Source of the DNA: Rhodohalobacter barkolensis
GTDB lineage: Bacteria; Bacteroidota; Rhodothermia; Balneolales; Balneolaceae
Direction: 5' to 3'
NCBI RefSeq assembly: GCF_002834295.1
Contig: NZ_PISP01000003.1
Coordinates: forward strand, 248,001-312,000
Length of the DNA stretch: 64,000 nt
Positions within the stretch are counted from its first letter, which is position 1, and every line of letters starts with the position of its first letter. Position numbers and translations under genes: made by a program. Shown here piece by piece: positions 15,659 through 29,315 of the stretch. Below the pieces are notes generated by a model. It saw only the letters and a program-made list of their open reading frames with translations, did no database searches and was not told where the DNA came from.

Positions 15659-15702
15659 ATCTCCCCTCGAGGGGAGTGGGCGCGTAAGCGGTCGAGGGGT
15701 GT
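15659..15702 (+). repeat. 44-bp C/G-rich repeat, copy R1
   Basis: This starts 10 bases after the mutB stop and is identical over 44 bases to the copy at 15852-15895. It starts with the palindrome CTCCCCTCGAGGGGAG and ends in GTCGAGGGGTGT. A second palindrome, GATTTCGAAATC, lies just downstream at 15706-15717. R1 and R2 are direct repeats bracketing a truncated gene. Confidence 0.9.
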
Positions 15703-15851: not shown

Positions 15852-15895
15852 ATCTCCCCTCGAGGGGAGTGGGCGCGTAAGCGGTCGAGGGGTGT
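15852..15895 (+). repeat. 44-bp C/G-rich repeat, copy R2 (left border of the DUF559 unit)
   Basis: This is a second exact copy of R1. It interrupts the GxxExxY remnant on its left and ends 22 bases before the DUF559 ATG. Together with the inverted R3 copy at 16299-16350 it brackets the DUF559 gene like terminal inverted repeats. Confidence 0.88.
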
Positions 15896-15917: not shown

Positions 15918-16298
15918 ATGCCCAACAAAATTCTTCCATACAACCCAAAGTTGAAAAAACTTGCCAGGAAACTGCGCCGTAATATGACCTACGGTGAAGT
16001 ACTGTTATGGCAAGAGATTCGAGGAAAGAAATTAGGGTATCAATTTCACCGACAAGTACCCATAAAAAATTACATCGTTGATTTCTTTTGCCATGAACTA
16101 CAGTTAGCAATCGAAATTGATGGTTGTTACCATAATCATCCTGAAGTATCCATTTCAGATTTGAACAGGCAACAGGAAATTGAAAAAATTGGTGTCAACT
16201 TTCTTAGATTTAATGAGTCTGAGATTCGGAAAGATATTTCAGGTGCTGTAGAAGACATACATAATTGGATCAAATTGAATCAAAATCAAAATTCTTAA
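15918..16298 (+). CDS. DUF559 (Vsr/PD-(D/E)XK-like) endonuclease-domain protein
   Basis: The 126-residue protein carries the full DUF559 pattern: an N-terminal basic helix (KLKKLARKLRRNMTYGE), then LLWQEIRGKKLGYQFHRQ, then YIVDFFCHELQLAIEIDG with the presumed catalytic D and E-x-D residues, and finally NFLRFNESEI. The fold belongs to the very-short-patch-repair/restriction-endonuclease-like superfamily. Its natural target is unknown. It has no functional link to the methylmalonyl genes around it. Its stop codon abuts repeat R3, and it is enclosed by palindromic repeats on both sides, which suggests a mobile unit. It appears intact. Confidence 0.9.
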   Translation: MPNKILPYNPKLKKLARKLRRNMTYGEVLLWQEIRGKKLGYQFHRQVPIKNYIVDFFCHELQLAIEIDGCYHNHPEVSISDLNRQQEIEKIGVNFLRFNESEIRKDISGAVEDIHNWIKLNQNQNS

Positions 16299-16350
16299 CA
16301 CCCCTCCCCATCCCGAAAGAATTCGGGATGGTACTCCCCTCAAGGGGAGA
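16299..16350 (-). repeat. Inverted C/G-rich repeat R3 (right border of the DUF559 unit)
   Basis: On the minus strand this starts TCTCCCCTTGAGGGGAGT and ends GGGGAGGGGTG, matching both ends of R1/R2, while its centre is replaced by another hairpin (CATCCCGAA...TTCGGGATG). It starts directly after the DUF559 stop and ends at the base before the meaB ATG, so its AAGGGGAGA sequence serves as a possible ribosome-binding site for meaB. Confidence 0.8.
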
Positions 16351-17433
16351 ATGTCTATGACAAAATCCAAAAACAAATCGCTTTCAATTAATAAAGGTTC
16401 TGATGTGAACGAATCCATCAATCCAAATTATCGGACAAAGAAACTTTCGAAAAGATCCTTAAAGGAGTATGTGGAAGGAATTAAGAGTGGTGACCGAACC
16501 ATCTTGTCTCAGGCCATTACACTGATTGAAAGTTCAAAAAAGGAGTATAGAGAGTTCGGGCAAGAGATCCTTGAACAGTGTTTATCAGAGACCGGCAATT
16601 CCGTTCGGATCGGAGTTACCGGAGTACCCGGGGTTGGAAAGAGTACATTCATTGAAGCCTTAGGACAGTACCTCATACAGAATGATCACAAACTCGCTGT
16701 GCTGACGATTGACCCGAGCAGCAGCCGCTCCAAAGGGAGTATTCTAGGCGATAAAACACGAATGCAAAAACTTTCTACTGATGACCGGGCTTTTATCCGT
16801 CCGTCCCCCACTTCCGGTACTTTGGGCGGTGTTGCGCAAAAAACCCGGGAAACCATGCTATTGTGTGAAGCTGCCGGATATGACACGATCTTTATCGAAA
16901 CAGTAGGTGTGGGGCAATCCGAAACGACCGTACATTCGATGGTTGATTTTTTCCTGCTCCTGATGTTGGCCGGCGCCGGCGATGAGCTGCAGGGGATCAA
17001 ACGTGGAATTATGGAGATGGCCGACCTGATTGCAATCAACAAAGCGGAAGGAGACAATCTCAATGCATCTAAAAAGGCGAAACAGGAATATGAAAATGCG
17101 TTGTCTTTATTTCCACCATCCCCTTCAGGCTGGAAACCGAAAGTAATGACCTGTTCTGCACTTCAGGCAAAAGGAATTGAAGAAATTTGGGAAGAGGTGC
17201 AGAACTACCTGGAGTTAACTTCCGAAAATAGATTTTTCGAGAAACGCCGAAAAGAACAGGCCGCATTCTGGATGTACGAAACCATTAACCAGGAGTTAAA
17301 ACAGAAATTTTACTCGAATCCGGAAGTGAAAGCAAAGCTCGCAAAGTTCGAGAGGGATGTTCAGACTGGTAAGCTTAGCTCATTTAAAGCGGCTAAAGAG
17401 CTTTTAGATCTATTTAAAATGAATTCAGGATAA
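16351..17433 (+). CDS. meaB: Methylmalonyl-CoA mutase-associated GTPase MeaB
   Basis: The 360-residue G3E-family GTPase (ArgK/MeaB) protects and reloads methylmalonyl-CoA mutase with cobalamin. Its P-loop is GVPGVGKST (91-99), followed by LTIDPSSSRSKGSILGDKTRM, the ETVGVGQSE switch region and the NKAEGDN base-recognition loop. The C-terminal dimerisation arm is present. The ATG at 16351 abuts repeat R3; a second ATG at 16357 is possible. The family's usual N-terminus is shorter and begins near the LKEYVEGI helix, so the first 30 or so low-complexity residues may be lineage specific. It belongs functionally to mutA-mutB. Confidence 0.95.
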   Translation: MSMTKSKNKSLSINKGSDVNESINPNYRTKKLSKRSLKEYVEGIKSGDRTILSQAITLIESSKKEYREFGQEILEQCLSETGNSVRIGVTGVPGVGKSTFIEALGQYLIQNDHKLAVLTIDPSSSRSKGSILGDKTRMQKLSTDDRAFIRPSPTSGTLGGVAQKTRETMLLCEAAGYDTIFIETVGVGQSETTVHSMVDFFLLLMLAGAGDELQGIKRGIMEMADLIAINKAEGDNLNASKKAKQEYENALSLFPPSPSGWKPKVMTCSALQAKGIEEIWEEVQNYLELTSENRFFEKRRKEQAAFWMYETINQELKQKFYSNPEVKAKLAKFERDVQTGKLSSFKAAKELLDLFKMNSG

Positions 17434-17456
17434 AGTCATTGGATTTGACAACATGA

Positions 17457-17712
17457 GAAGTCCCCTCATTCCCAAGGAGGGGCTCCGAGCAAAGCGATTC
17501 CCACGAAGTGGTTTAGGCCTGCCTGCGCTGAAGCTTCGGAAGGCAGGGGTGGTTGAAACCAATATCAGATCAGATTTAAAGCCTGAAATCATTAGGGTTA
17601 CCTCCCCCAACCCCTTCCATCAGTAGCCGGACTGGCTCTTACACCCCGACGTTTCGAGGGCAGGCAGGAGGGGAGAATCATTTTCAAGATTCTTAAGTCG
17701 AACTCACGTTAA
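17457..17712 (+). mobile_element. Miniature palindrome-ended element, copy A
   Basis: This gene-free unit of about 256 bases shares its backbone with copy B at 28054-28210. Shared blocks include GTCCCCT...AGGAGGGG at the left, GGTTGAAACC, CAGATCAGATTTAAAGCCTG, CCTCCCCCAACCCCT and a right tail ending CGAACTCACGTTAA. Copy A carries two or three extra G/C-rich inserts absent from copy B, one with a CCTGCCT...AGGCAGG hairpin. Both ends carry C-rich palindromes in inverted order, like the DUF559 borders. It fills the gap between convergent meaB and cdaA and ends 9 bases before the cdaA stop. Confidence 0.7.
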
Positions 17713-17721
17713 TCTAAACAA

Positions 17722-18534
17722 TCAGTTCATTTCAAGATCTGCTTTTTCTGAACTGAATCCCATATCGCCGCCTTTCTCTTCACCCAATGATTGCTCCATT
17801 TCGGCGCGCAGTTTTTGAATAGACAAACCACTGGTAAGGGCTCCATTTTTGGCAATCGAAATACGTCCCGTCTCTTCAGAAACTATGATCACAAATACAT
17901 TATTGGTTTCACTGATTCCCACTGCAGCCCGATGACGTGTTCCAAAAACAGACGAAATATTAGGATTCTGAGAAATGGGAAGGTAGCAGCTTGCAGCCAC
18001 TATTCGGTTATTACGAATTACAACTGCGCCATCATGAAGAGGTGTATCTTTCTGGAATATCGTTTGCAACAGCTGTGCGTTTACACGTGCATCCAGTTTC
18101 ACGCCCACATCAACCAGATCCTGCAGTGAAGAACTCCGGGCAAAAACTATGAGTGCCCCCGTTTTAACCTGAGCCATATTTTTCACGGCATCAATCACCT
18201 CCTCGATAACCGTGTCGGCTCCCGACCGTCCGATAAACCGGTCAAATGTTGTGTTTTGCCCCAGGCTGTAGAGTAGCTTTCGTATCTCGGGCTGAAAAAT
18301 GATAAATACAGCCAATACACCCACATCCAGAATACTTCGCAATATGAAATTAAGTGTAGTAAAACCTAACAGACTTACGGCACCATTTAAAACAATCACA
18401 AAAAGAAGGCCGAAGGCCGCCTGTATAGCAAATGTTCCCCGTATCCACCTATACAGATAGAACAACACCAGTGCTATCACCAGTGTCTCCAGCAGGTCTT
18501 TAAGACCAAACTCTAAAAATCCTATCGGTATCAC
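17722..18534 (-). CDS. cdaA: CdaA-type membrane diadenylate cyclase
   Basis: The 270-residue protein makes cyclic di-AMP from two ATP. Three N-terminal membrane helices (within about residues 8-82) precede the DAC domain, whose active-site motifs are intact: DGAVVI (D168-G169-A170) and GTRHRAA (R200-H201-R202). It starts at a GTG codon. It follows folP by 20 bases, a gene pair common in Bacteroidota. Cyclic di-AMP usually controls potassium and osmolyte uptake. No phosphodiesterase or c-di-AMP receptor is obvious in the window. Confidence 0.95.
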   Translation of the reverse strand: MIPIGFLEFGLKDLLETLVIALVLFYLYRWIRGTFAIQAAFGLLFVIVLNGAVSLLGFTTLNFILRSILDVGVLAVFIIFQPEIRKLLYSLGQNTTFDRFIGRSGADTVIEEVIDAVKNMAQVKTGALIVFARSSSLQDLVDVGVKLDARVNAQLLQTIFQKDTPLHDGAVVIRNNRIVAASCYLPISQNPNISSVFGTRHRAAVGISETNNVFVIIVSEETGRISIAKNGALTSGLSIQKLRAEMEQSLGEEKGGDMGFSSEKADLEMN

Positions 18535-18554
18535 AGTTTTATTTTATTTGAGGT

Positions 18555-19436
18555 TTATCTGCTATCTGTCTCAGATGACTTTATAGCGTTGTATACTTGA
18601 ATTGAATCAGAGGCTTCCTGAACATCATGCACTCGCAATAATTTAGCACCATTGATCAAACTTTGGTAGTGTACCGCAATTGTGCCCGCCAATCTGCCGG
18701 ATGCAGGTCTGTTATCTAAAATTTGTCCAATCATTGATTTACGGGAAGCACCCATCATTATAGGGTAGCCAAATTTCGTGAATTTATGAAGTCCGGAAAT
18801 GATTTTCAGATTATGCTGAAGAGTTTTTCCAAAGCCTATACCGGGATCAACAAACACATTTTCAACTCCGGCATTTTTCAGAACTTCAATCTGGCGGCTT
18901 AAAAAAGCTATGATGTCCGAAACCACATCTTCATAGTCCGGATTTTTCTGCATCGTCTTGGGATCTCCCTGAGAGTGCATTAACACATAACCTGCATTAA
19001 ACTCCGAACACAATTCAGCAAATCGGGGTTCTTTCCGGAGTCCACTCACGTCGTTGATGATATGTGCTCCTAATTCAAGAGCCTGACGCGCAACCTCATA
19101 TTTTGTTGTATCAACCGAGTAGATTGTATCCGGGAATTTCTCTAACGCTGCCTCTAATACCGGCAACACTCTCGAAACTTCTTCATCAACTGAAACCGGA
19201 TCTGAACCCGGCCGGGTGGATTCTCCTCCAATATCGATAATCTCAGCGCCCTCACGGATCATCTCTTCTATACGTTTGAGCGCAACCTCTTTTTGATTGT
19301 ACTCACCGCCATCCGAAAAGGAGTCGGGGGTTACATTCAAAATTCCCATCACTTTAGGAGTGCTTAAATCCAGCTCTCTATTTCTGATTTTTAGAATGTG
19401 ATGGGATTCTGCAGTTTTACTCAATGACACGGACAA
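18555..19436 (-). CDS. folP: Dihydropteroate synthase
   Basis: The 293-residue TIM-barrel enzyme joins p-aminobenzoate to the pterin pyrophosphate in folate synthesis. Diagnostic motifs are MGILNVTPDSFSDGG (from residue 30), IDIGGESTRPGSDPV, the loop IINDVSGL, and GASRKSMIG near the end. The start is probably TTG at 19436 or GTG six bases inside; no ATG is available upstream of the first motif. It is followed closely by cdaA and preceded by the ferredoxin gene with a 46-base gap. Confidence 0.95.
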   Translation of the reverse strand: MSVSLSKTAESHHILKIRNRELDLSTPKVMGILNVTPDSFSDGGEYNQKEVALKRIEEMIREGAEIIDIGGESTRPGSDPVSVDEEVSRVLPVLEAALEKFPDTIYSVDTTKYEVARQALELGAHIINDVSGLRKEPRFAELCSEFNAGYVLMHSQGDPKTMQKNPDYEDVVSDIIAFLSRQIEVLKNAGVENVFVDPGIGFGKTLQHNLKIISGLHKFTKFGYPIMMGASRKSMIGQILDNRPASGRLAGTIAVHYQSLINGAKLLRVHDVQEASDSIQVYNAIKSSETDSR

Positions 19437-19482
19437 TCTTTAAGATAATTTTAGAAGGAATTCAGGTGCGTCACTTAATGAA

Positions 19483-19821
19483 TTAGTCCCAGTCTTCCTG
19501 TAGAAATTCGAGCTTATTCTCTTTCTCTGCCCAATCATCCGCATCAGGCAGTGCATCTTTTGTCTCATTAATGACACGATCATCCCATTTTTCGGCCAGT
19601 CGTTCGTTCAGCTCAATATAGTGCTCCCACTCTTCGGGAACTTCATCATCTGGATAGATCGCCTCTACAGGACATTCGGATACACAGGCATCACAATCGA
19701 TGCATTCAAGTGGATCAATTGTTAAAAAATTGGGGCCTTCACGAAAAGCGTCAACGGGACAAACCGCCGCACAATTCGTGTATTTACAGTTTACACAGGG
19801 TTCTGTTACTACGTATGCCAT
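19483..19821 (-). CDS. fdxA: Seven-iron (3Fe-4S/4Fe-4S) ferredoxin
   Basis: The 112-residue electron carrier begins MAYVVTEPCVNCKYTNCAAV with the first cysteine set, followed by CPVDAFREGPNF, then ECIDCDACVSECPVEAI for the second cluster. The pattern and the long acidic C-terminal tail (about 50 residues) match the FdxA/Azotobacter FdI type, known in Thermus and Bacteroidota relatives. The redox partner is not apparent. It could be transcribed into folP. Confidence 0.9.
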   Translation of the reverse strand: MAYVVTEPCVNCKYTNCAAVCPVDAFREGPNFLTIDPLECIDCDACVSECPVEAIYPDDEVPEEWEHYIELNERLAEKWDDRVINETKDALPDADDWAEKENKLEFLQEDWD

Positions 19822-19966
19822 TTATCTGTTCAAGTGTTGTTTGGGGTTCTTACACAATGATCAATTGCGTATGGTATTTCATATTCGGCTAAGATGCAAT
19901 TCAAAAAGAGACAATTACTGATGTCAAATTTGAGAAAAAGAGTCTTCAGATTAACTGCATACTGCC

Positions 19967-21208
19967 TTATTGATTCAAAAACTTTCTAACTTCATCCAGG
20001 CTTCCATCGTTCTCAGCCGGTTCAATTTGCAGCAGATAGGCCATCAGTTCATACATATGAACAGACTCAACCGGCCCCTCAATTGCACCGGACTTAAATG
20101 CAGGTCCTTTGGCTGCAAAAAATGTATGCATATCCGGTTCGAAATTGTCAAATCCGTGCATACCGGGAACGACACCTCGCTCCTCAAAATATTCCCGGTT
20201 AGTAATCGTGAATTGATTATCCGCGATCATAATAATCTCCGGGATTCGGTAGTGATTTGAAAAGTGGAACCTCTCCGGCAGTTCATCACGCAAAAACACC
20301 CGGTAATTTTCCTCATTCTCTTTCAGTGCGCGGTAAACTTCATCCGTTTTCCCTTCGTGGGGTTTAATCATAGCAACCGGAGTATAGTCCACCATATCTA
20401 CGTCGTCCAAATTGATAATTTCATCCAGGAATATCACCTTCTCTTCCGATTGGGCTGCCATCCCATGATCCGAGACCAGCAGAATATTGATGTTATCGGA
20501 TAGTCCTACCTCATCTAATTTCTCAAGGAAATAACCCAGCAGACCATCCATTTGCACCACGGCTTCATCCACTTCCGGAGAATCCGGACCGTAACTGTGC
20601 CCGCGACTGTCCACAAAACTGAAGTAGAGTGTGCCAAAATCTGCCTGTACATCACCGGCCGGATCAAACCATGCAGCGATACTGTCAATCCGGGTACTGT
20701 CCGGTATGGAGCCGTCATAATCCACCCACTTCGTGGATTGTAAACCAACAAAAGTAGCCTCAGAGCCCGGCCAGAAAAAGTTCACCGATGTCTTACCCTG
20801 CTTCTCGGCCGTCACCCAAATCGGCTCACCTCCCCACCAGCGTTCATCGTGCTGACCATCCGGAGCTCCATAGCTAAATCGCTCCTCCAGTTCATAGTCA
20901 TAAAAACTGTTGGATATAATTCCGTGATTTTCAACGTACAGACCGGTAGCCAGTGACCAGTGATTTGGAAAGGTTTTGGTTGGGAAAACAGGAATTAAAT
21001 ACTCCGCCTGTACACCTTCTGAAATAAATTCATCAAAATTGGGTGTCTCATTCCGGTCGATATATTTATTCATAAATCCATCAACAGAAATTAGTAAAAC
21101 CGGGGCGGGTTCAGCTTCTGTCCGGTCCGAATCTGAATTTTCACAGCCATTCAGGCTTAAAACGAATACAAGTGCTGTTAACAGGTAGAGAGCGTTCTTT
21201 CGTAGCAT
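19967..21208 (-). CDS. NPP-type phosphodiesterase/alkaline phosphatase family lipoprotein
   Basis: The 413-residue protein belongs to the nucleotide pyrophosphatase/phosphodiesterase branch of the alkaline phosphatase superfamily. A lipobox (LNGC, Cys22) indicates a lipoprotein. The metal ligand Asp43 (LISVDGF), nucleophile Thr79 (FPTKTFPNH) and later metal sites (DSRGHSYGPDS, VSDHGM, GMHGFDN) are all visible. Such enzymes cleave nucleotide or lipid phosphodiesters outside the cytoplasm. It is a tandem paralog of the gene at 21228-22460, with only 19 bases between them, so the two form an operon. The substrate is unknown. Confidence 0.92.
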   Translation of the reverse strand: MLRKNALYLLTALVFVLSLNGCENSDSDRTEAEPAPVLLISVDGFMNKYIDRNETPNFDEFISEGVQAEYLIPVFPTKTFPNHWSLATGLYVENHGIISNSFYDYELEERFSYGAPDGQHDERWWGGEPIWVTAEKQGKTSVNFFWPGSEATFVGLQSTKWVDYDGSIPDSTRIDSIAAWFDPAGDVQADFGTLYFSFVDSRGHSYGPDSPEVDEAVVQMDGLLGYFLEKLDEVGLSDNINILLVSDHGMAAQSEEKVIFLDEIINLDDVDMVDYTPVAMIKPHEGKTDEVYRALKENEENYRVFLRDELPERFHFSNHYRIPEIIMIADNQFTITNREYFEERGVVPGMHGFDNFEPDMHTFFAAKGPAFKSGAIEGPVESVHMYELMAYLLQIEPAENDGSLDEVRKFLNQ

Positions 21209-21227
21209 GATAAACTTGAGTTGAATA

Positions 21228-22460
21228 TTATTTTTGTAAGATATGAATTAATGAATCAAGTCTCCCGTCGTTTGGAGCCGGCTCGAGATCCAGTAGATGG
21301 GTCATCAGTTCATAGAGATGAATATTTTGAAAACCTTCGGTTGTTATCCCCTGCTTGAACGAGGGACCTGCTGCAATAAATAAGCTATGCATTTCAGGAT
21401 ACAGATTGTCATACCCGTGAGCACCACCGGCTACACCATACTCTTCCAATCGATTGGAGGTTGTAATACTATACCCCAAATCCGCTATAAGGATAAATTC
21501 CGGAACACGATCGTGATTTTTAAAATGGAGACGATCCGGCAGATCCTCTTTTTTGTACACGCTGAAATTCTTCTCATTTGCTTTCAACGACTCATAAATT
21601 TCATCTAATTCTCCTTCATTTGGCTGAATCATCGCAACCGGGTTCCAATCGATCATTTCAACCAATTCTAAATCGATAATTTGATCCAGCAAAATAACTC
21701 GTTCTTCGGATACTTCTGCCATTCCATGATCGGAAACGATGATCATATTCAATGTTTCTCCTTTATCAACTCTTTCAAGCTCCGACAGCAAATATCCAAT
21801 CTGTTCGTCTACCTCTTTAACGGCAACCGCTGTGGAATCTGAGTTTGGTCCGTACCGATGCCCATAAGTGTCTACTTTACTAAAATAGAGTGTCATAAAT
21901 CCGGGTGCTTGTTCAGGCTCCATGGTCAGCCAGTGAATGACTGAATCGACCCGGGCACTGTAGGGGTGATAGTCATCATAAGGACTCCAATACGTTGGAT
22001 GAGTTCCGCCAATCGGCGCCTCCGAGCCGGGCCAGAACATGGGTGCCGATTTTACTCCCTGTTTCTCTGCCGTTACCCAGATCGGTTCGCCTTCATACCA
22101 CCGGGCATCCTGAACGGCTTCTCTATTGCCGAGACTGTAGTAAGAGTCCATCTCTGAATCGTACATATTATTGGCAATCAATCCGGTGTTTTCGGTGTAT
22201 CGGCCGGTTACAATGGAGTAGTGATTGGGAAAGGTTTTGGTTGGAAAAACCGGGATCATATAGTCTGCCAGAACTCCCTGCTCAACAATTCGATCCAGGT
22301 TGGGTGTTTCATAATTGTTTAAATAATCGGGATGGAAACCGTCAATAGAAATAAGAAGAAGTTTATTCGAATCAATCTCCTTTCTTTTATCGCAAGCAGC
22401 AACAAAAAGAAGTGTAAATAAAAAGATAAAGGCTGGTATAGACAGTTTTAGCTTGTGCAT
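21228..22460 (-). CDS. NPP-type phosphodiesterase lipoprotein, tandem paralog
   Basis: The 410-residue protein has the same architecture as its neighbour at 19967-21208: lipoprotein signal (LLFVAAC), LISIDGF, FPTKTFPNHYSIVTG with the nucleophilic Thr, VSDHGMAEVSEERVILLDQI and GGAHGYDNLYPEMHS. Long stretches such as GEPIWVTAEKQG are identical in both copies, pointing to a local duplication followed by divergence. It is first in the two-gene operon, just after the terminator of the TonB receptor gene. Confidence 0.92.
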   Translation of the reverse strand: MHKLKLSIPAFIFLFTLLFVAACDKRKEIDSNKLLLISIDGFHPDYLNNYETPNLDRIVEQGVLADYMIPVFPTKTFPNHYSIVTGRYTENTGLIANNMYDSEMDSYYSLGNREAVQDARWYEGEPIWVTAEKQGVKSAPMFWPGSEAPIGGTHPTYWSPYDDYHPYSARVDSVIHWLTMEPEQAPGFMTLYFSKVDTYGHRYGPNSDSTAVAVKEVDEQIGYLLSELERVDKGETLNMIIVSDHGMAEVSEERVILLDQIIDLELVEMIDWNPVAMIQPNEGELDEIYESLKANEKNFSVYKKEDLPDRLHFKNHDRVPEFILIADLGYSITTSNRLEEYGVAGGAHGYDNLYPEMHSLFIAAGPSFKQGITTEGFQNIHLYELMTHLLDLEPAPNDGRLDSLIHILQK

Positions 22461-22479
22461 AAAGTCGGGTATAGGATAT

Positions 22480-22513
22480 AAAAAAAGAGGAGACCGCGAA
22501 CGGCCTCCTCTTT
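22480..22513 (-). terminator. Rho-independent terminator after the TonB-dependent receptor
   Basis: A 13-bp stem with one mismatch (AAAGAGGAGGCCG with CGGTCTCCTCTTT on the minus strand) encloses a four-base loop and is followed by seven T. It separates the receptor gene from the phosphodiesterase pair. Confidence 0.85.
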
Positions 22514-22536
22514 GAAAAATTTGTTTACAGTTGGTT

Positions 22537-25500
22537 TTAGAAGTTGTACTTCACTGTAAACTGCATTTGCCATCTTGAACCGAAGTCGCTGACGTTGAAC
22601 TTGTTTTCGTCTTCTTGTTCAGCCGGGTCGAAGAATACAACCGGCTTGTCAAGATCATCAGCACCTAAACCAAGACCAGGGTTGTTATCGATGAAGTCCT
22701 GGTCTACATACTGCCAGAAATCGACAGCCTGATGGTTGTTAAAGCTAACACCTTGACGTACACCCCACTCAGGATTCAGTAAGTTCAGTACGTTCAGCAT
22801 TGTTGCGCTAAACTCAACAGACTGACCGCTGAAGGTCTGAACCTGCTGACTTACTTTGAAATCGAGGAAGTTTGTCCACTCTTCACGATCAGTGTTACGT
22901 TCTACATGACCACCTCTGTAATCATTCAGTGCATCAGTTCCGGAAATAAATTCATCGAATTCATTCCAGTTGTTGCTCATCAGTACAACTTCACCCTGTT
23001 CAGCAGGCACATAAAGCAAGTCATTATCAAATCGACCGTCTCCGTTGGCATCACCTCTGTAGATGTAGCTGTATGGAGAACCTGACCGTCCGTCATAAAT
23101 CAATGAGAATGTAGTATTGAATCTTTCAGCCCAGTCCAGTCTGTACGAAGCAATACCGAGAATTCTGTGGCGTCTTTCAAAGTCCGCAGTTCCCACTTTA
23201 GCATTATTCACATCAACGTTCTCGTTGTACTGCCAGTTAGAGATCGCACGACTGGAAGTACCGTTATTTACGTTCGTTGCACGGTTATAGGTATAAGACA
23301 ACCTTGTAAAAAACCCGCTCTCAAAACGTTTTTCCAACTCACCGGTGATGCTGTATTGATAGCCGTCATTTGTGTTTTCCAATAAGATCGCATTGGTAAA
23401 GTTCGGATCCAGTCTTGATGGTGTTCCGGATGCATTACCAAAGTTTGAGTTGAATGTGATATCACCATAAATAGGTCTTCCGTATGCAGATGTTCCTTCC
23501 TGTACCAGGTTAATGTTTGAGAAAGTTACATCGTTAATCGCTTTGGAGTAAACCCCTTCAAGTGTACCACGGATACCGTAAGGCAGTTCCTGGTCAACAG
23601 CGAGATTCACTTTCAATGACTGAGGATACTTGAAGTCATCTGCAATCAGGTTAATTTCTGATGTTGCAATTGGATCCAATTGGCCACTGGTGCTTGGAGT
23701 TGGCTGGTTATCAGGGTCCGGGCTAAAAAATCCATCACCTAAATAGTTTCTCTCACTAACACGACCATAGTCTACACCGGTGTTACTGTACTGGTTGGAG
23801 ATCCATACAAACGGAGGTGTACCGGAAAAGATACCCGCTCCACCACGAATTTGTGTGGTTCTCTGTCCCTGACTGGCATCCCAGTTAAATCCAACACGAG
23901 GTGCCCAGAGAATATTTCCGGAAGCAATCTTATCGGTTGAGTATCCCGGGAATGCTGTTGGAACAAGAGGATTGAAGGTTGGCTCATCAGGCAGTACTGG
24001 AATATCAATTCTTAAACCGTAAGTCAGTGTAAGACTGTTATTCACAGTCCATTTGTCTTGTGCGTACAATCCAAACTGCATTCCGGTAAAGTTAGCTGTC
24101 GGGCTTCCGCCTGGCAGAAGGTAGCTGTGAGCATAATCAAATGGATTTCCATCAGCCAGATCATCAATACCTCTAAATGTATATGTACCGAAAGCATCCT
24201 GAACAAACAGGTTATCAAACGTGAAGATCTGGTTGCTTGTACCTAAGGTAAATTCATGATTACCGGAGATGTAGGTGAAGTTGTTGGTTAGCTCAATCAA
24301 ATCCTGGTCCAAACCATTTGCCTGAGAGAAACGCTCAACACCCGCATTGATTGATCCAAATCCACTTCGATCGTCATCATACGGCAAACTAAGTGTAACA
24401 CTTGGGAATCGCTGGGAAGGCACATCTCGTGAATCACGAATTGCTGTGTATACTACCCGAGCTTCGTTAAACGCATTGTCACTGATTCTACTGGTCAGCT
24501 CCGCAACAACTGAGTTCTGCTTACTGTTGAAATCGTACTGACGGTTGGAGAATGTGAACGAGCTTGTCCCCCGACTGATTCCCCTGTCTGCAATAGCGTC
24601 CACATAGTTGTAACGGAAACTCAGTTTGTGGTCCTGATTGATGTTCCAATCCAATTTTGCAAGCACTTTGTCATTATTGGTTTCTGTATCCAACGGTGAT
24701 GTATAGGCGCCTGGATCATATCCGTACTGATTCTCAAGAATATTAGCAATCTGATCAAAAGTAGAAGCCTCAAAGTTTACCTGGTTTGTAGCTCCGCTTC
24801 CAAGAATACCGCCTGTAATTGGGCTGGTTTCACGCTTAAACTCAGCATTCACGAAGAAGAAGAGTTTATCTTCAATGATCGGACCACCAACATTCAAACC
24901 GATGTAGCGCTCAGTAAAGTCAGGAAAATCACTGGACTCATCACCGTCAATCTCATAGTTACCAACCAAACTTTGATTTCTGGTCTGGAAGTAAACAGAT
25001 CCGGTGTACGTGTTTGTACCACTCTTAGTAATCGCGTTAACCTGGCCACCGGTAAATCCGTTATTGGTCACGTCAAAAGGGGCGATATCTACGTTAAATT
25101 CCGCGATAGCGTCGATACTCAACGGAGATCCAACACCTGCCTGAGATCCCGGAGTTGCATCACCCAATCCAAAAACATCATTAAGTGTAGCACCATCAAC
25201 AAGAATATTGTTATATCTGTCGTTCGCTCCACCAAAACTGTTTCCACTGGTAACTTGTGGTGTCAGTCGGGTAAAGTCTCCGAGAGATCGGAATACACTT
25301 GGAGTAACAGCAATATCTTCACTGCTGATGTTGGTTCTGGCGCCGGTTCTGTCTGAGTTAAAAACCTGATCTGCAACCGCAGTTACTGAGATCTCTCCTA
25401 ATTCAAGAGAACCCTCTTCAAGTTCAAAATCCATAGTTACACGTTCACCCAGTTCGACTCTGGTAATCTCTTTAATTTGAGAATTGAAACCGATAAAAGT

Positions 25501-25743
25501 AACACGTACTTCATAAGGCCCCCCAACTCGAACATTTCTGAGAGTGTAGCGACCATCAACACGTGTTGATGTCCCATATTCGGTTCCGGTAGGCATATGC
25601 ACGGCAACCACATTGGCTCCCGGCAGCGGCTCACCCGTTACATCTGTAATTGTTCCTTCAATCGACCCGGATGTGGTACCCTGTGCGAACACAGAAATTG
25701 GCAGCACAAGAAGAGCGACGAATAGTAGTAAATATCGTTTCAT
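22537..25743 (-). CDS. Oar-like TonB-dependent outer-membrane receptor
   Basis: The 1068-residue protein has a signal peptide (YLLLFVALLVLPISVFA) and a carboxypeptidase-regulatory-like domain at about 25-110 (GSIEGTITDVTGEPLPGANV). A plug domain with ILVDGATLNDVFGLGD and GGQVNAITKSGTN follows, and then a long beta-barrel ending in aromatic WQMQFTVKYNF. No classical TonB box, SusD partner or substrate enzyme is adjacent, so this is the Oar/OmpA-related solitary type. Import of peptides or signalling roles have been reported for relatives; here the ligand is unknown. It has its own terminator, and about 210 bases upstream are gene-free. Confidence 0.93.
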   Translation of the reverse strand: MKRYLLLFVALLVLPISVFAQGTTSGSIEGTITDVTGEPLPGANVVAVHMPTGTEYGTSTRVDGRYTLRNVRVGGPYEVRVTFIGFNSQIKEITRVELGERVTMDFELEEGSLELGEISVTAVADQVFNSDRTGARTNISSEDIAVTPSVFRSLGDFTRLTPQVTSGNSFGGANDRYNNILVDGATLNDVFGLGDATPGSQAGVGSPLSIDAIAEFNVDIAPFDVTNNGFTGGQVNAITKSGTNTYTGSVYFQTRNQSLVGNYEIDGDESSDFPDFTERYIGLNVGGPIIEDKLFFFVNAEFKRETSPITGGILGSGATNQVNFEASTFDQIANILENQYGYDPGAYTSPLDTETNNDKVLAKLDWNINQDHKLSFRYNYVDAIADRGISRGTSSFTFSNRQYDFNSKQNSVVAELTSRISDNAFNEARVVYTAIRDSRDVPSQRFPSVTLSLPYDDDRSGFGSINAGVERFSQANGLDQDLIELTNNFTYISGNHEFTLGTSNQIFTFDNLFVQDAFGTYTFRGIDDLADGNPFDYAHSYLLPGGSPTANFTGMQFGLYAQDKWTVNNSLTLTYGLRIDIPVLPDEPTFNPLVPTAFPGYSTDKIASGNILWAPRVGFNWDASQGQRTTQIRGGAGIFSGTPPFVWISNQYSNTGVDYGRVSERNYLGDGFFSPDPDNQPTPSTSGQLDPIATSEINLIADDFKYPQSLKVNLAVDQELPYGIRGTLEGVYSKAINDVTFSNINLVQEGTSAYGRPIYGDITFNSNFGNASGTPSRLDPNFTNAILLENTNDGYQYSITGELEKRFESGFFTRLSYTYNRATNVNNGTSSRAISNWQYNENVDVNNAKVGTADFERRHRILGIASYRLDWAERFNTTFSLIYDGRSGSPYSYIYRGDANGDGRFDNDLLYVPAEQGEVVLMSNNWNEFDEFISGTDALNDYRGGHVERNTDREEWTNFLDFKVSQQVQTFSGQSVEFSATMLNVLNLLNPEWGVRQGVSFNNHQAVDFWQYVDQDFIDNNPGLGLGADDLDKPVVFFDPAEQEDENKFNVSDFGSRWQMQFTVKYNF

Positions 25744-25953
25744 AATTGGCGATATGATTAGAATTAGTTTTTATGTGTTTTTATGTGGTCAGAGATAATA
25801 AGAACTGTTTGTTAAGCGACTATTAACAACGGCGAAAAGGTAATGATTTTTTTAAGAGAATAGAACCCAATACTTCAATTTATAATTTTGATAAAGCGCT
25901 TTCATCGAGACGTGAATAGGCAACTTTTCACGTATCTGTTTAAGAGCCAATTA

Positions 25954-26649
25954 TTAAGATGAAATCTGATTTTTATAAAAGTGAAACAACACTTCCTGGC
26001 TCAACCCCGCATAGTATCCAAGCCAAACAAAAGTGAAAATCAGCTGAAGCCTAATAACACCTACATTTCTGTATTTTCTAGCGGATGTAATGACGTTTCT
26101 TTCTGAAAGATAAAAACTTCCAATTCTCTTTAGGTCTCTCACAATCTTTTGATCTTCCATCACAATCAAATCCTCGTCAAAACCACCTGCCTTTTCAAAC
26201 AGCTTTTTTTGCACAAATAAGCTCTGGTCTCCGAAACGAATTTCTGTTAAACGGAATCGCGTAAAATAGCTATAAAACCGAAGTATCGGATGATCCCAGT
26301 CGAAAACAAGCCGAAAGCATCCAAACCCGTACCCTTTTTGAATTGCTTTTAGAATCTCCCGGTCAAACAGTTTTGGCGGTGTGGTGTCTGCATGTAGGAA
26401 ATAGAGAACATCTCCCCTGGCAGCTCTGGCGCCGGCGTTCATCTGTTTGGCACGCCCTTTATCTGCAACGACTACCTTAGCACCTGCCCGTTTAGCCAAT
26501 TCAGCCGTACGATCAGAACTCCCCCCGTCTACCACAATGATCTCATTTCCATCATCGTATTGAAGCTTTTGAACGTTATTTATCAGTTCTTTAATCTGAC
26601 CCTCTTCATTCAGGACTGGAATAATAATGCTTATTGCTTCTTCATTCAT
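25954..26649 (-). CDS. Family 2 glycosyltransferase, TIGR04283 type
   Basis: The 231-residue GT-A enzyme opens with ISIIIPVLNEEGQIKELI, then VVDGGSSDRTAELA and the metal-binding HADTTPP. The C-terminal part (FGDQSLFVQKKLFEKAGGFD and a hydrophobic FTFVWLGYYAGL) matches the family often found beside radical-SAM or arsenosugar genes. It overlaps the upstream TIGR04282-type gene by 4 bases (ATGA), so they are co-translated. No arsM or arsS homolog is in the window. Confidence 0.9.
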   Translation of the reverse strand: MNEEAISIIIPVLNEEGQIKELINNVQKLQYDDGNEIIVVDGGSSDRTAELAKRAGAKVVVADKGRAKQMNAGARAARGDVLYFLHADTTPPKLFDREILKAIQKGYGFGCFRLVFDWDHPILRFYSYFTRFRLTEIRFGDQSLFVQKKLFEKAGGFDEDLIVMEDQKIVRDLKRIGSFYLSERNVITSARKYRNVGVIRLQLIFTFVWLGYYAGLSQEVLFHFYKNQISS

Positions 26650-27242
26650 ATCCGAAGATCACTTTTCATCAGATCACTCTCTGTATCAATATCATTAAGG
26701 ACGGTTAGTTTACTGTACGTAGCCCCCGATTCTTCAAGTTTTTCAATCGTCGTTTCACAGACGCTGTTAGTACTCCACTCTATATCATCAAATATCTCCG
26801 GTAAAAACCTGCTCATGCCAATCAAATAGTACCCTCCATCGTCTGACGGGCCAATAGTGCAGTCAACGCTTTTCAGCCTATCAAATGCATCATCTATTAA
26901 GTTGCTCGAAATGCCCGGACAGTCACTTCCAATCAGGATGACTCTTTTAAATCCTTGCTCAAAGCCTGCATGAATGGCACTTTTCATCTTCCTGCCTAAA
27001 TCACCGTTCGACTGTACAGTTTTTTCAAATATATTCACATCAAACTGATCATCGATTACCACTGATTTCGAGTAGCTAACCCTTTTTGTTGCATGAACCC
27101 CAGCTGCCGTTTCTGCTGTTATATCCAATAACTTTTTATAAATATTGAGCGCTTTATCATCACCTACAGATGCTGCAAGACGTGTTTTCACCCGGCCTTT
27201 TTCAGGTGTCTTCACGAAAATGATTAATAAATTTTCTCCCAT
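26646..27242 (-). CDS. DUF2064/TIGR04282-type nucleotidyl/glycosyltransferase
   Basis: The 198-residue protein has the GT-A-like pattern FVKTPEKGRVKTRLA near the start, then VILIGSDCPGISSNLIDDAF and the conserved IGPSDDGGYYLIG. These define the DUF2064 family, one branch of which is assigned to arsenosugar biosynthesis. It is first of a two-gene operon with the TIGR04283-type glycosyltransferase. The substrate here is unproven. Confidence 0.88.
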   Translation of the reverse strand: MGENLLIIFVKTPEKGRVKTRLAASVGDDKALNIYKKLLDITAETAAGVHATKRVSYSKSVVIDDQFDVNIFEKTVQSNGDLGRKMKSAIHAGFEQGFKRVILIGSDCPGISSNLIDDAFDRLKSVDCTIGPSDDGGYYLIGMSRFLPEIFDDIEWSTNSVCETTIEKLEESGATYSKLTVLNDIDTESDLMKSDLRI

Positions 27243-27337
27243 TAGAGTACTATCTATTTTTGCTTATTCATTTGAATCATTTTAAAATTAATTCTTAACG
27301 TGAATCATTCACCAAAAGGCTTTACAGAATCGGCGCT

Positions 27338-27416
27338 GTCATTCTGAACGTAGTGAAGAATCTAGTTTTAAAACCAATACTTGCATATAAAGATTCTTCG
27401 ATAAACTCAGAATGAC
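27338..27416. repeat. Inverted repeat of the TCATTCTGAAC...GAAGAATCT family
   Basis: The left arm (27338-27363) begins GTCATTCTGAACG and ends GAAGAATCT; the right arm (27391-27416) begins AGATTCTTCG and ends CAGAATGAC. The two 26-base arms are inverted with a divergent centre. The left arm matches the minus strand of 46316-46341 at 25 of 26 positions. This is a dispersed intergenic repeat that can form a large hairpin. Confidence 0.75.
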
Positions 27417-27537
27417 AAATTGTATAGGTTTTGCAAAGCCATTCACCACTAAAAGCTTAAGGAACTTTTAGTTGCCATACTTGTTAAAGTAACATATACG
27501 TAACTAACTGACTGCGAAATAATTAAATATCATACTA

Positions 27538-28002
27538 ATGAATAAGGCAAAAATTACAATTTTAACATTCGCATTTGCGCTGTTATTTGGAGCAATTTCA
27601 ACTTTGGATGCCCAGTCCAGATATAGCGATACAGAACTTGGTGTAATATTAGGTGAACCCACCGGTATCAGCTTTAAAGCCTGGCAATCAGATAATACAG
27701 CAATTGATGCGGCTTTAGCCTGGTCATTTGGTGACAACGGCTCCGTTCACCTTCATGCAGATTATCTCCGTCACAAGTGGCTAACTGTGGAAAGCGGAAG
27801 CTTGGCTTTTTACTATGGCCTGGGTGCAAGAGCCCTCTTTTCTGATGACTCTAAGTTTGGAGCCCGAATTCCGGTAGGACTACAATATATGTTTCCGGAA
27901 ACCAGATTATCGATGTTTTTTGAAGTAGCCCCAACCCTTGATCTCATTCCCGAAACCAGTTTTGGGGTTAATGGCGGGATTGGTATCCGAATATTTATTT
28001 AA
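27538..28002 (+). CDS. Small outer-membrane beta-barrel-like protein
   Basis: The 154-residue protein has a signal peptide (ILTFAFALLFGAISTLDA, cut near AQS) followed by alternating beta-strand segments with GEPTGISFKAW, AIDAALAWSFGD, FYYGLGARALF and a final strand GGIGIRIFI. This resembles the small eight-strand barrel families (DUF3996-like). No enzymatic motif is visible. It stands alone, and about 295 bases before it hold only the inverted repeat. Confidence 0.75.
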   Translation: MNKAKITILTFAFALLFGAISTLDAQSRYSDTELGVILGEPTGISFKAWQSDNTAIDAALAWSFGDNGSVHLHADYLRHKWLTVESGSLAFYYGLGARALFSDDSKFGARIPVGLQYMFPETRLSMFFEVAPTLDLIPETSFGVNGGIGIRIFI

Positions 28003-28053
28003 TTTTTATAAGCTAACGCGAATTCGATATAAAATGAAGGTAAAGGCATAGAA

Positions 28054-28210
28054 GAAGTCCCCTCCTTATTCAAGGAGGGGATTTAGGGGTGGTTGAAACC
28101 AATGTCAGATCAGATTTAAAGCCTGAAATCATTAGGGCTACCTCCCCCAACCCCTCCTTACACAGGAGGGGAGAATTATTTTCAAGATTCTTAAGTCGAA
28201 CTCACGTTAA
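28054..28210 (+). mobile_element. Miniature palindrome-ended element, copy B
   Basis: At 157 bases this is the shorter version of copy A (17457-17712), nearly identical outside A's inserts. Its left end forms CCCCTCCTT...AAGGAGGGG and its right end CCCCTCCTT...AGGAGGGG, with a body of about 60 bases. It sits between the convergent beta-barrel and metallo-hydrolase genes, ending one base before the latter's stop, in the same strand orientation as copy A. Confidence 0.75.
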
Positions 28211-28211
28211 A

Positions 28212-29315
28212 CTAGGAAACTTTTGCCCTGTTTCCGCTCATTATGGTTTCTGATCGCTTGACAGGAATTCTGATTTCAGCTCCTTCCCTTGTTAAACTAA
28301 CTTTATCAAACGGAGCGCCTTCATACTGTTTAAGTCTACTGTCTCTTCTTCTTAAAACTTCGTCGTTAGTATCAGGGTCGTGATGCGTTAAATATAGATT
28401 TTTCACGCCTGTAGGTTTTACAACTTCAATCACACGCTCCCATGCGGAGTGCCCCCACCCTTCTCTTTCTTTGTACTGCTGAAGTGTATATTGGGCATCA
28501 TGTATCAATACATCCGCATCCTTTATAAACTCCTGGAATTTCTCGACAAACCGGATCGGGGTTGTGTTGAGTGGCAACTCATTATCCGGCGCATAAACAA
28601 TGACACGCCCGCCTATTCTGATCTTATAGATTGCTGTTTTTGTAGAATGATTTGCCACAAAGTACTCAATTGAATAGTGTCCGTAATCCTCTCTCTCCTC
28701 TTTTTGAGTTACATACTCAATGGTTGCATCCAGCATGTCGAGAGTAACCGGGAAAAATGTTTTGGTGAGATGACCGGACAGAATCTCCTGAGCACCGCCA
28801 CGATATTGTTCAGGAAGATGAATTGAAAATTTGTTTTTACTGGAATAGAACGGTTTGAAAAATGGAAATCCCTGAATGTGATCCCAGTGCGGGTGGGTTA
28901 TAAAAATTCTTCCCCTATTGTTCATTTTATCCAGTCGTTCCAGATGATTCCCCAAATTCCGGATACCTGTTCCACTGTCAAATATCAGCAGCTCGTCCAT
29001 GCCGGGGGCATCAATCTCCATGCAGCTGGTGTTACCGCCATATTCAATATTTTCAAAATTCGCACATGGGGTAGATCCGCGAACACCCCAAAATCGAATT
29101 CTTACAGACGGCATAAGCTGTTCATTTACCGCGTCCAGGAGAGATTCATTATCTTTTACAATCCGGAAGCTGTTAAACTGAAGCAAACTCCCGACTCCGT
29201 TATCATCTCTTGTACCCAGATAGACTACCGGAACAAACTTCAGTCCGGGGCACAGTTTAACGGTCTGTTCAAACTGGATGTGATTTTCATCCAGGAAATT
29301 CTTTTCGATAACCAA
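28212..29315 (-). CDS. MBL-fold metallo-hydrolase with a degenerate receiver-like N-terminus
   Basis: The C-terminal ~280 residues are an MBL hydrolase: MPSVRIRFWGVRGSTPC, GGNTSC, THPHWDHIQGFPFF (metal site H-x-H-x-D-H), YAPDNE, LIHDAQYT and YLTHHDPD. An N-terminal segment of about 90 residues (with PDVLVIEKNFLDEN just before and after the TTG at 29315, and FVPVVYL) resembles a receiver domain with Glu in place of the phospho-acceptor Asp. The open frame continues upstream to 29477 without ATG, GTG or TTG, so the start is uncertain: TTG 29315, a non-standard start further up, or the ATG of MPSVRIRF (a pure hydrolase). Function is unknown; relatives include CheY-fused hydrolases. Confidence 0.75.
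   Translation of the reverse strand: MVIEKNFLDENHIQFEQTVKLCPGLKFVPVVYLGTRDDNGVGSLLQFNSFRIVKDNESLLDAVNEQLMPSVRIRFWGVRGSTPCANFENIEYGGNTSCMEIDAPGMDELLIFDSGTGIRNLGNHLERLDKMNNRGRIFITHPHWDHIQGFPFFKPFYSSKNKFSIHLPEQYRGGAQEILSGHLTKTFFPVTLDMLDATIEYVTQKEEREDYGHYSIEYFVANHSTKTAIYKIRIGGRVIVYAPDNELPLNTTPIRFVEKFQEFIKDADVLIHDAQYTLQQYKEREGWGHSAWERVIEVVKPTGVKNLYLTHHDPDTNDEVLRRRDSRLKQYEGAPFDKVSLTREGAEIRIPVKRSETIMSGNRAKVS

Follow-up and report, generated by a model that had tools for sequence, protein, structure and literature searches.

Within a 64,000-nucleotide stretch of the Rhodohalobacter barkolensis genome (contig NZ_PISP01000003.1, positions 248,001 to 312,000; hereafter the window, with positions counted from its first letter), a gene for a DUF559 protein lies near two short gene-free repeats, copies A and B. 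We find that both are miniature inverted-repeat transposable elements (MITEs), and that the hairpin dimer at their centre is the module of a particular clade of DUF559 genes. A preliminary description of this DNA had noted a near-identical body in A and B, and this was borne out, B being 97% identical to A over a 71-bp core and 96% identical over a 52-bp right part. It had also placed A at 17457-17712 and B at 28054-28210, each closed by terminal CCCCTC...GAGGGG palindromes. Those spans are real and the hairpins are present in both copies, but the units are longer (Table 1) and the hairpins do not lie at their ends. In aligned copies, conservation reaches past the hairpins to TAACGTGAGTTCGA on either side, and the element ends some 40-45 bp outside the palindromes, which are subterminal.

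Bacterial MITEs have terminal inverted repeats (TIRs) and short target duplications, carry no gene and occur in many copies. The family of A and B is of this kind: it is small, it lacks a transposase gene, and its many copies are dispersed. At up to one mismatch, the TIR TTAACGTGAGTTCGA was found in 27 of 28 genomes of the genus, as often as 77 times per genome, against 0-2 matches per genome for a reversed-pattern control. Sixty segments, 87-426 bp long, are bounded by inverted copies of the TIR at up to three mismatches, a few overlapping or doubtful pairs included (L007, L265 and L298 in our numbering of loci); in the same loci the reversed motif bounds three segments and each of six shuffled motifs none or one. 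Target duplications have the form TA-N2/3-TA. Across 36 combinations of offset and length tried on 59 of the 60 segments (one was left out for short flanks), a perfect 7-bp duplication, TANNNTA, was present in 10 (0.53 expected; at most 4 in 500 shuffles), a 6-bp duplication in 10 (1.08 expected) and a 5-bp inner match, overlapping the 7-bp class, in 12 (0.85 expected). The target-site duplication that the preliminary description proposed to look for is therefore found, and B itself has one with a single mismatch between its two sides.

Neither copy is one half of a simple two-copy duplication. With B as query, its own genome of 3.6 Mb gave 46 matches at E<=1e-3, of which 17 span 115 or more of the 157 query bases, and from these many dispersed matches we conclude that A and B are members of a dispersed family. 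When the outer arms were added to B, 20 of 40 genomes gave matches, its own included; all 20 fall in the genus, which accounts for 25 of the 40, and the 15 genomes that belong to other families are without a match. Both copies are missing between orthologous flanks in two relatives. For B, the interval measures 126 bp in genome G009 against 261 bp in its own genome, and 128 bp in genome G019 against 263 bp, the spacer having diverged so that the junction is not resolved to the base. For A, the intervals are 34 bp in G009 against 322 bp and 39 bp in G019 against 325 bp. It is thus fair to call A and B non-autonomous, mobile and multi-copy, as had been proposed.

The hairpin module of the two copies consists of a CCCCTCC/GGAGGGG stem with a GGGG[T/A]GG tail that points inward, two such modules forming an inverted dimer. 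As a single strand of DNA, B folds into a structure more stable than that of any of 200 shuffled sequences (z -4.2), and in its minimum-energy structure the ends are paired, two hairpins stand within, and the tails of the hairpins pair with each other. Copy A is a less tidy example. Its left boundary is approximate (about 17411), with the exact left end inferred; the left arm aligns locally with a score of 39, the start of the hairpin included, a value reached by none of 2000 simple shuffles (maximum 28). The extra G/C-rich palindromic inserts already reported for A are confirmed at 17483-17544 and within 17611-17673, and the suggested nesting of elements is real, as parts of the first insert recur by eye in L002 and L006 and the right-hand insert in L005 and L020. 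Searched with Rfam at gathering thresholds, the window gave no match.

Table 1. Positions of copies A and B, their parts, and the DUF559 gene of the window
Feature	Position	Strand
Upstream hairpin and GAGGGGTGT tail of the DUF559 gene	15852..15895	+
DUF559 gene (PF04480), of a hairpin class unlike that of A/B	15918..16298	+
Downstream inverted hairpin of the DUF559 gene, with inserted palindrome	16299..16349	+
Copy A, MITE with DUF559-type hairpin dimer and palindromic inserts; left end decayed	about 17411..17712	+
A left arm, variant AATCATTGAATTTGG, overlapping the stop codon of the open reading frame 16351-17433	17411..17460	+
A left hairpin CCCCTC...GAGGGG	17461..17482	+
G/C-rich palindromic insert separating A left hairpin from its tail	17483..17544	+
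A core: tail AGGGGTGG, body, tail CCTCCCC	17545..17610	+
A right hairpin, broken up by palindromic inserts	17611..17673	+
A right TIR TTAACGTGAGTTCGA	17698..17712	-
B left target duplication TAAGCTA	28009..28015	+
Copy B, complete MITE with DUF559-type hairpin dimer	28016..28207	+
B left hairpin TCCCCTCCTTATTCAAGGAGGGGA	28058..28081	+
B left tail TTTAGGGGTGGTT	28082..28094	+
B right tail (reverse complement TTGGGGGAGGT)	28140..28150	-
B right hairpin CCCCTCCTTACACAGGAGGGG	28151..28171	+
B right TIR TTAACGTGAGTTCGA	28196..28210	-
B right target duplication TAAACTA	28208..28214	+

The same arms enclose more than one kind of core. Besides the CCCCTCC-type hairpin dimers of A and B they hold CCCCCTT-type hairpins, single CCCCTCC-type hairpins within about 105 bp (L309, L285) and, by eye, two types of repeat with the look of the CGTC class. 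Among the 60 TIR-bounded segments, 30 or 35 are of the CCCCTCC type, depending on which of two classification rules is applied, and with one pair of arms (P/Q) 10 segments carry a CCCCTCC core, four a CGTC-like core and one another core. The core labels, "CGTC-like" included, were set by eye and pattern, and the shares are biased toward the CCCCTCC type by loci that were fetched with B as query. In L277 and L293-L306, many copies of the MITE enclose repeats resembling the CGTC-tagged repetitive extragenic palindromic sequences (REPs). According to PMC3733652, CGTC-tagged REPs have no dedicated transposase. We saw no support for CGTC-like repeats as general partners of DUF559 genes (3 of 127 DUF559 flanks, 1 of 109 control flanks). 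A MITE with exchangeable palindromic cores would be a natural record of the places where such hairpins land.

There is a precedent for a hairpin dimer inside a palindrome. Two examples are given by Di Nocera et al. (PMC3733652), who describe the REP dimers GTAG-15 of A. variabilis and CGTC-1 of H. neapolitanus as embedded in longer palindromes and report that the target palindromes were not found there without REPs. The present case goes further in that the enclosing palindrome is an element with TIRs and target duplications, seen with other cores as well. It also departs from the usual MITE in that the cores of the family are interchangeable.

The same genome carries seven complete DUF559 genes and one marginal match. 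On visual inspection, each of the seven lies between two hairpins that bear G-rich tails and are inverted relative to each other; in L033 and L035 the stem on one side is imperfect or interrupted, and the stems vary from gene to gene. The preliminary description had equated the palindromes of A and B with the DUF559 borders. This holds for two genes elsewhere in the genome, C3:110304-110663 and C1:1474323-1474706, whose flanks match the A/B stem and tail, but not for the window's own gene, where the stem is CTCCCCTCGAGGGGAG. The similarity is significant, as had been supposed: half-modules of B match DUF559 flanks with 93% identity over 41 query bases (E 1.8e-9) and, in a second match, 91% over 43 (E 1.5e-10). 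Stems and tails of the A/B type also flank relatives of these two genes (at least 110 bits) elsewhere in the genus. Ten genomes hold such a relative, and among the 12 of 16 loci whose flanks were displayed some have the hairpin on one side only. The module of the A/B dimer is thus that of a DUF559 clade.

The association of DUF559 genes with tailed hairpins extends well beyond this genus. We compared 127 distinct DUF559 genes, 56 from the organism's own family and 71 from named records of many phyla, with 109 control ORFs, which are open frames of at least 110 residues in 58 of the same loci and are unverified as genes. (The 127 are those kept from 135 matches after removal of flanks running off the contig, ORFs longer than 260 residues and repeated proteins.) Inverted similarity between the two flanks reached at least 28 for 82 of the 127 genes, 40 of the 71 named records among them, and for four of the 109 controls (p 3.5e-21). 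Pyrimidine-first hairpins on both sides were found at 76 of the DUF559 genes and two of the controls, and purine-first hairpins on both sides at four of the 127. The similarity of hairpin flanks rises with the similarity of the proteins (Mantel rho 0.27, p 0.003, 299 permutations). The tails point inward in 62 of the 127 upstream flanks and 51 of the 127 downstream flanks. A covariance model, with up to 150 candidates scored in each genome, puts the median density of the half-module at 14.9 per Mb for the 11 genomes that have the cognate DUF559 clade and at 1.5 per Mb for the 17 that lack it (p 7e-5); among high-quality genomes only, seven with and 11 without the clade, p is 0.001. DUF559 genes are thus commonly flanked by tailed hairpins, and the type of hairpin tends to vary with the protein.

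DUF559 is a common domain of unknown function. The protein encoded in the window matches PF04480 and PF18741, and among solved chains a profile of the seven proteins retrieves 3hrl (E 1e-28) as well as 3r3p, the homing endonuclease I-Bth0305I (E 2e-6). Its predicted model, with a mean predicted local distance difference test score (pLDDT) of 85.8, likewise resembles 3hrl (E 3e-6) and 3r3p (E 2e-3), and more weakly Vsr (E 0.05). Across 34 sequences D55, E66, D68, H72 and D81 never vary and E27 hardly does, a pattern compatible with an EDxHD-type site if the residues are assigned as we suppose. DUF559 proteins have been termed Vsr-like (PMC12907096) and EDxHD (PMC9403480), while the available passages of PMC1189080 make no mention of DUF559. 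The related fold and the compatible acidic and histidine residues are shared with I-Bth0305I and Caulobacter VsrA, as described in PMC3943268, PMC12907096 and PMC9403480, but unlike those comparison proteins the DUF559 genes considered here are flanked by tailed hairpins. Within the open-access literature searched, 14 papers contain the term "DUF559", but it stands in no title or abstract, an absence only as good as that coverage.

Taken together, these data make it probable that A and B have two layers, a MITE moved through its outer arms and, nested at its centre, a REP-doublet-like (REPIN-like) dimer of DUF559 hairpins. Because tailed hairpins of this general kind flank DUF559 genes, and stem and tail tend to differ from one protein clade to another, the dimer most likely serves as the REPIN-like unit in a repeat system driven by DUF559. 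REPINs and REPtrons, as described in PMC3116915 and PMC3733652, likewise comprise short palindromes with an unpaired tail in inverted dimers, genes flanked by their own palindromes, and several types of gene and palindrome per genome. There are also differences: the gene here encodes a DUF559 (Vsr/EDxHD-like) nuclease and not the HUH tyrosine transposase RAYT (REP-associated tyrosine transposase), and the tail on the 3' side of the stem is GGGG[T/A]GG and not the GTAG tag of REPs. The left tail, GGGGTGGTT, has no GTAG tag, and in the right tail, GGGGGAGGTAG, GTAG occurs only at a distance of about 8-10 nt 3' of the stem.

By this mechanism, some transposase would act on the outer arms of the MITE, with its TIR TAACGTGAGTTCGA and target duplication TA-N2/3-TA. 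A small Vsr/EDxHD-type nuclease might recognise its cognate hairpin, perhaps in single-stranded or cruciform form, and nick beside it, and the nick would let the dimer, or a gene lying between two hairpins, copy into new places. Dimers may have landed in the palindromic centre of the MITE and then spread passively with it. The DUF559 nuclease would in that case mobilise hairpins in the fashion of a REPtron, as part of a bacterial nuclease-and-hairpin system that may so far have gone unrecognised. More tentatively, DUF559 proteins could be enzymes dedicated to a very large superfamily of hairpins with tails (C-rich/G-rich stem, GGGG[T/A]GG-type tail), distributed over Bacteroidota, Nitrospirota, Patescibacteria, Cyanobacteria and further phyla. 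This would be a selfish, REPtron-like system of PD-(D/E)XK/EDxHD type that uses MITEs as landing pads, with cores exchanged between unrelated repeat families. If so, a clade-specific hairpin partner across phyla gives DUF559 a testable role, a second enzymatic route to REP-like repeats exists, and what mobilises RAYT-less repeats becomes a directly testable question.

Several observations weigh against this interpretation. On the side of the MITE, no autonomous element with this TIR was seen among the matches listed, and at two mismatches the TIR occurs 26 times in its own genome against 19 for the control, so that isolated matches at this looser setting carry little weight. At one flank of the C1:1474323 gene there is a weak string resembling the TIR, with an indel (TTAATGTGAAGTTCTAT), and TIRs may once have flanked this gene. 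On the side of the hairpins, direct similarity between flanks is high too (medians of 43 in the family, 25 in the named records and 18 in mismatched pairs), since palindromes match both ways and some genes lie in arrays; with direct and inverted similarity both high, orientation rests on the tails, and these point outward in 30 and 27 of the 127 flanks. Genomes G015, G005, G018 and G081 hold 41, 34, 19 and 22 modules without the cognate clade, and TIR density tracks the clade as well (p 7e-4), so shared ancestry may underlie the association, the density and flank comparisons all being made without correction for phylogeny. Finally, no movement of a DUF559 unit was seen at base resolution.

We also considered the possibility that DUF559 is a homing endonuclease, the gene-free dimers being empty targets into which the gene is copied by repair of the cut. 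An EDxHD homing endonuclease, I-Bth0305I, is indeed among its relatives, and different hairpin types stand by eye beside the same genes in L104, L118, L154 and L155. Cognate genes are, however, also present at several unrelated sites, and homing in itself does not explain hairpin dimers in high copy number, which together leave this explanation rather unlikely. We think it more doubtful still that A and B are plain MITEs, with the hairpins as passengers or terminator-like structures and the DUF559 genes merely surviving in repeat-rich intergenic space. TIRs and target duplications alone would account for the movement of A and B, and several kinds of hairpin fit the same arms, but hairpins are much more frequent in the flanks of DUF559 genes than at control ORFs from the same loci, one hairpin polarity is preferred (present on both sides in 76 of 127 genes, the other in 4), and the similarity of the flanks goes with that of the proteins.

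The preliminary description had favoured a third explanation, that A and B are internally deleted DUF559 units which lost the gene, kept the borders and are moved in trans by DUF559. Hairpins and tails do match the borders of cognate DUF559 genes, and G019 holds what looks like the remnant of such a deletion, with a C-terminal fragment of the gene. The outer ends, however, did not turn up as the ends of DUF559 units: at up to two substitutions without indels, the TIR occurs in two of 147 DUF559 loci, one being copy A itself and the other L205, about 1.1 kb from the gene. No DUF559 remnant was detected in the A/B core, which at only 51 bases gives the search limited power; the one strong match of the core among the DUF559 loci, in L034, is again copy A, and the same test did recognise the true remnant in G019. 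That remnant looks unlike A and B, which is one reason not to class them as DUF559 derivatives. Given the other cores within the same arms and the lack of a remnant, we hold A and B to be MITEs with a nested hairpin dimer, and consider the deletion origin improbable. Movement of the hairpins by a RAYT or other Y1 transposase is very improbable, since, despite 17 Y1_Tnp matches in the genome, CCCCTCC/GGAGGGG occurs once each in two of eight fetched loci, about 440 and 1,000 bases away, and in none of the other six, the near flanks carrying other short palindromes by eye. RAYT ownership was rejected on these eight of the 17 loci, none of which has A/B-type hairpins near the gene.

Some further features of these loci deserve mention. 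The ORF at 16351-17433, which we take from its sequence to encode a MeaB-like protein, ends in the residues MNSG, which have no counterpart in the relatives G009 and G019, and these residues and the stop codon probably derive from the arm of copy A. Small palindromic inserts within or beside hairpins, as in the window at 17483-17544 and 17611-17673, are seen also in L002, L005, L006, L008, L020 and L157, some of them common to several copies. On contig 12 of G019 two DUF559 genes lie close together (L151, L168), and the region has at least one short remnant, with only the C-terminal coding end, beside cognate hairpins, apparently a deletion derivative. By eye, DUF559 genes with different hairpin types share the same upstream gene in L104, L118 and L154 and the same downstream efflux-type gene in L104, L118 and L155, possibly reflecting a hotspot or replacement in place. 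In L100, L106 and L113, DUF559 genes lie between long direct repeats of whole hairpin modules, in an array-like arrangement. Upstream of the window's own DUF559 gene, the 44-bp hairpin-plus-tail at 15852-15895 has an identical copy, in direct order, at 15659-15702.

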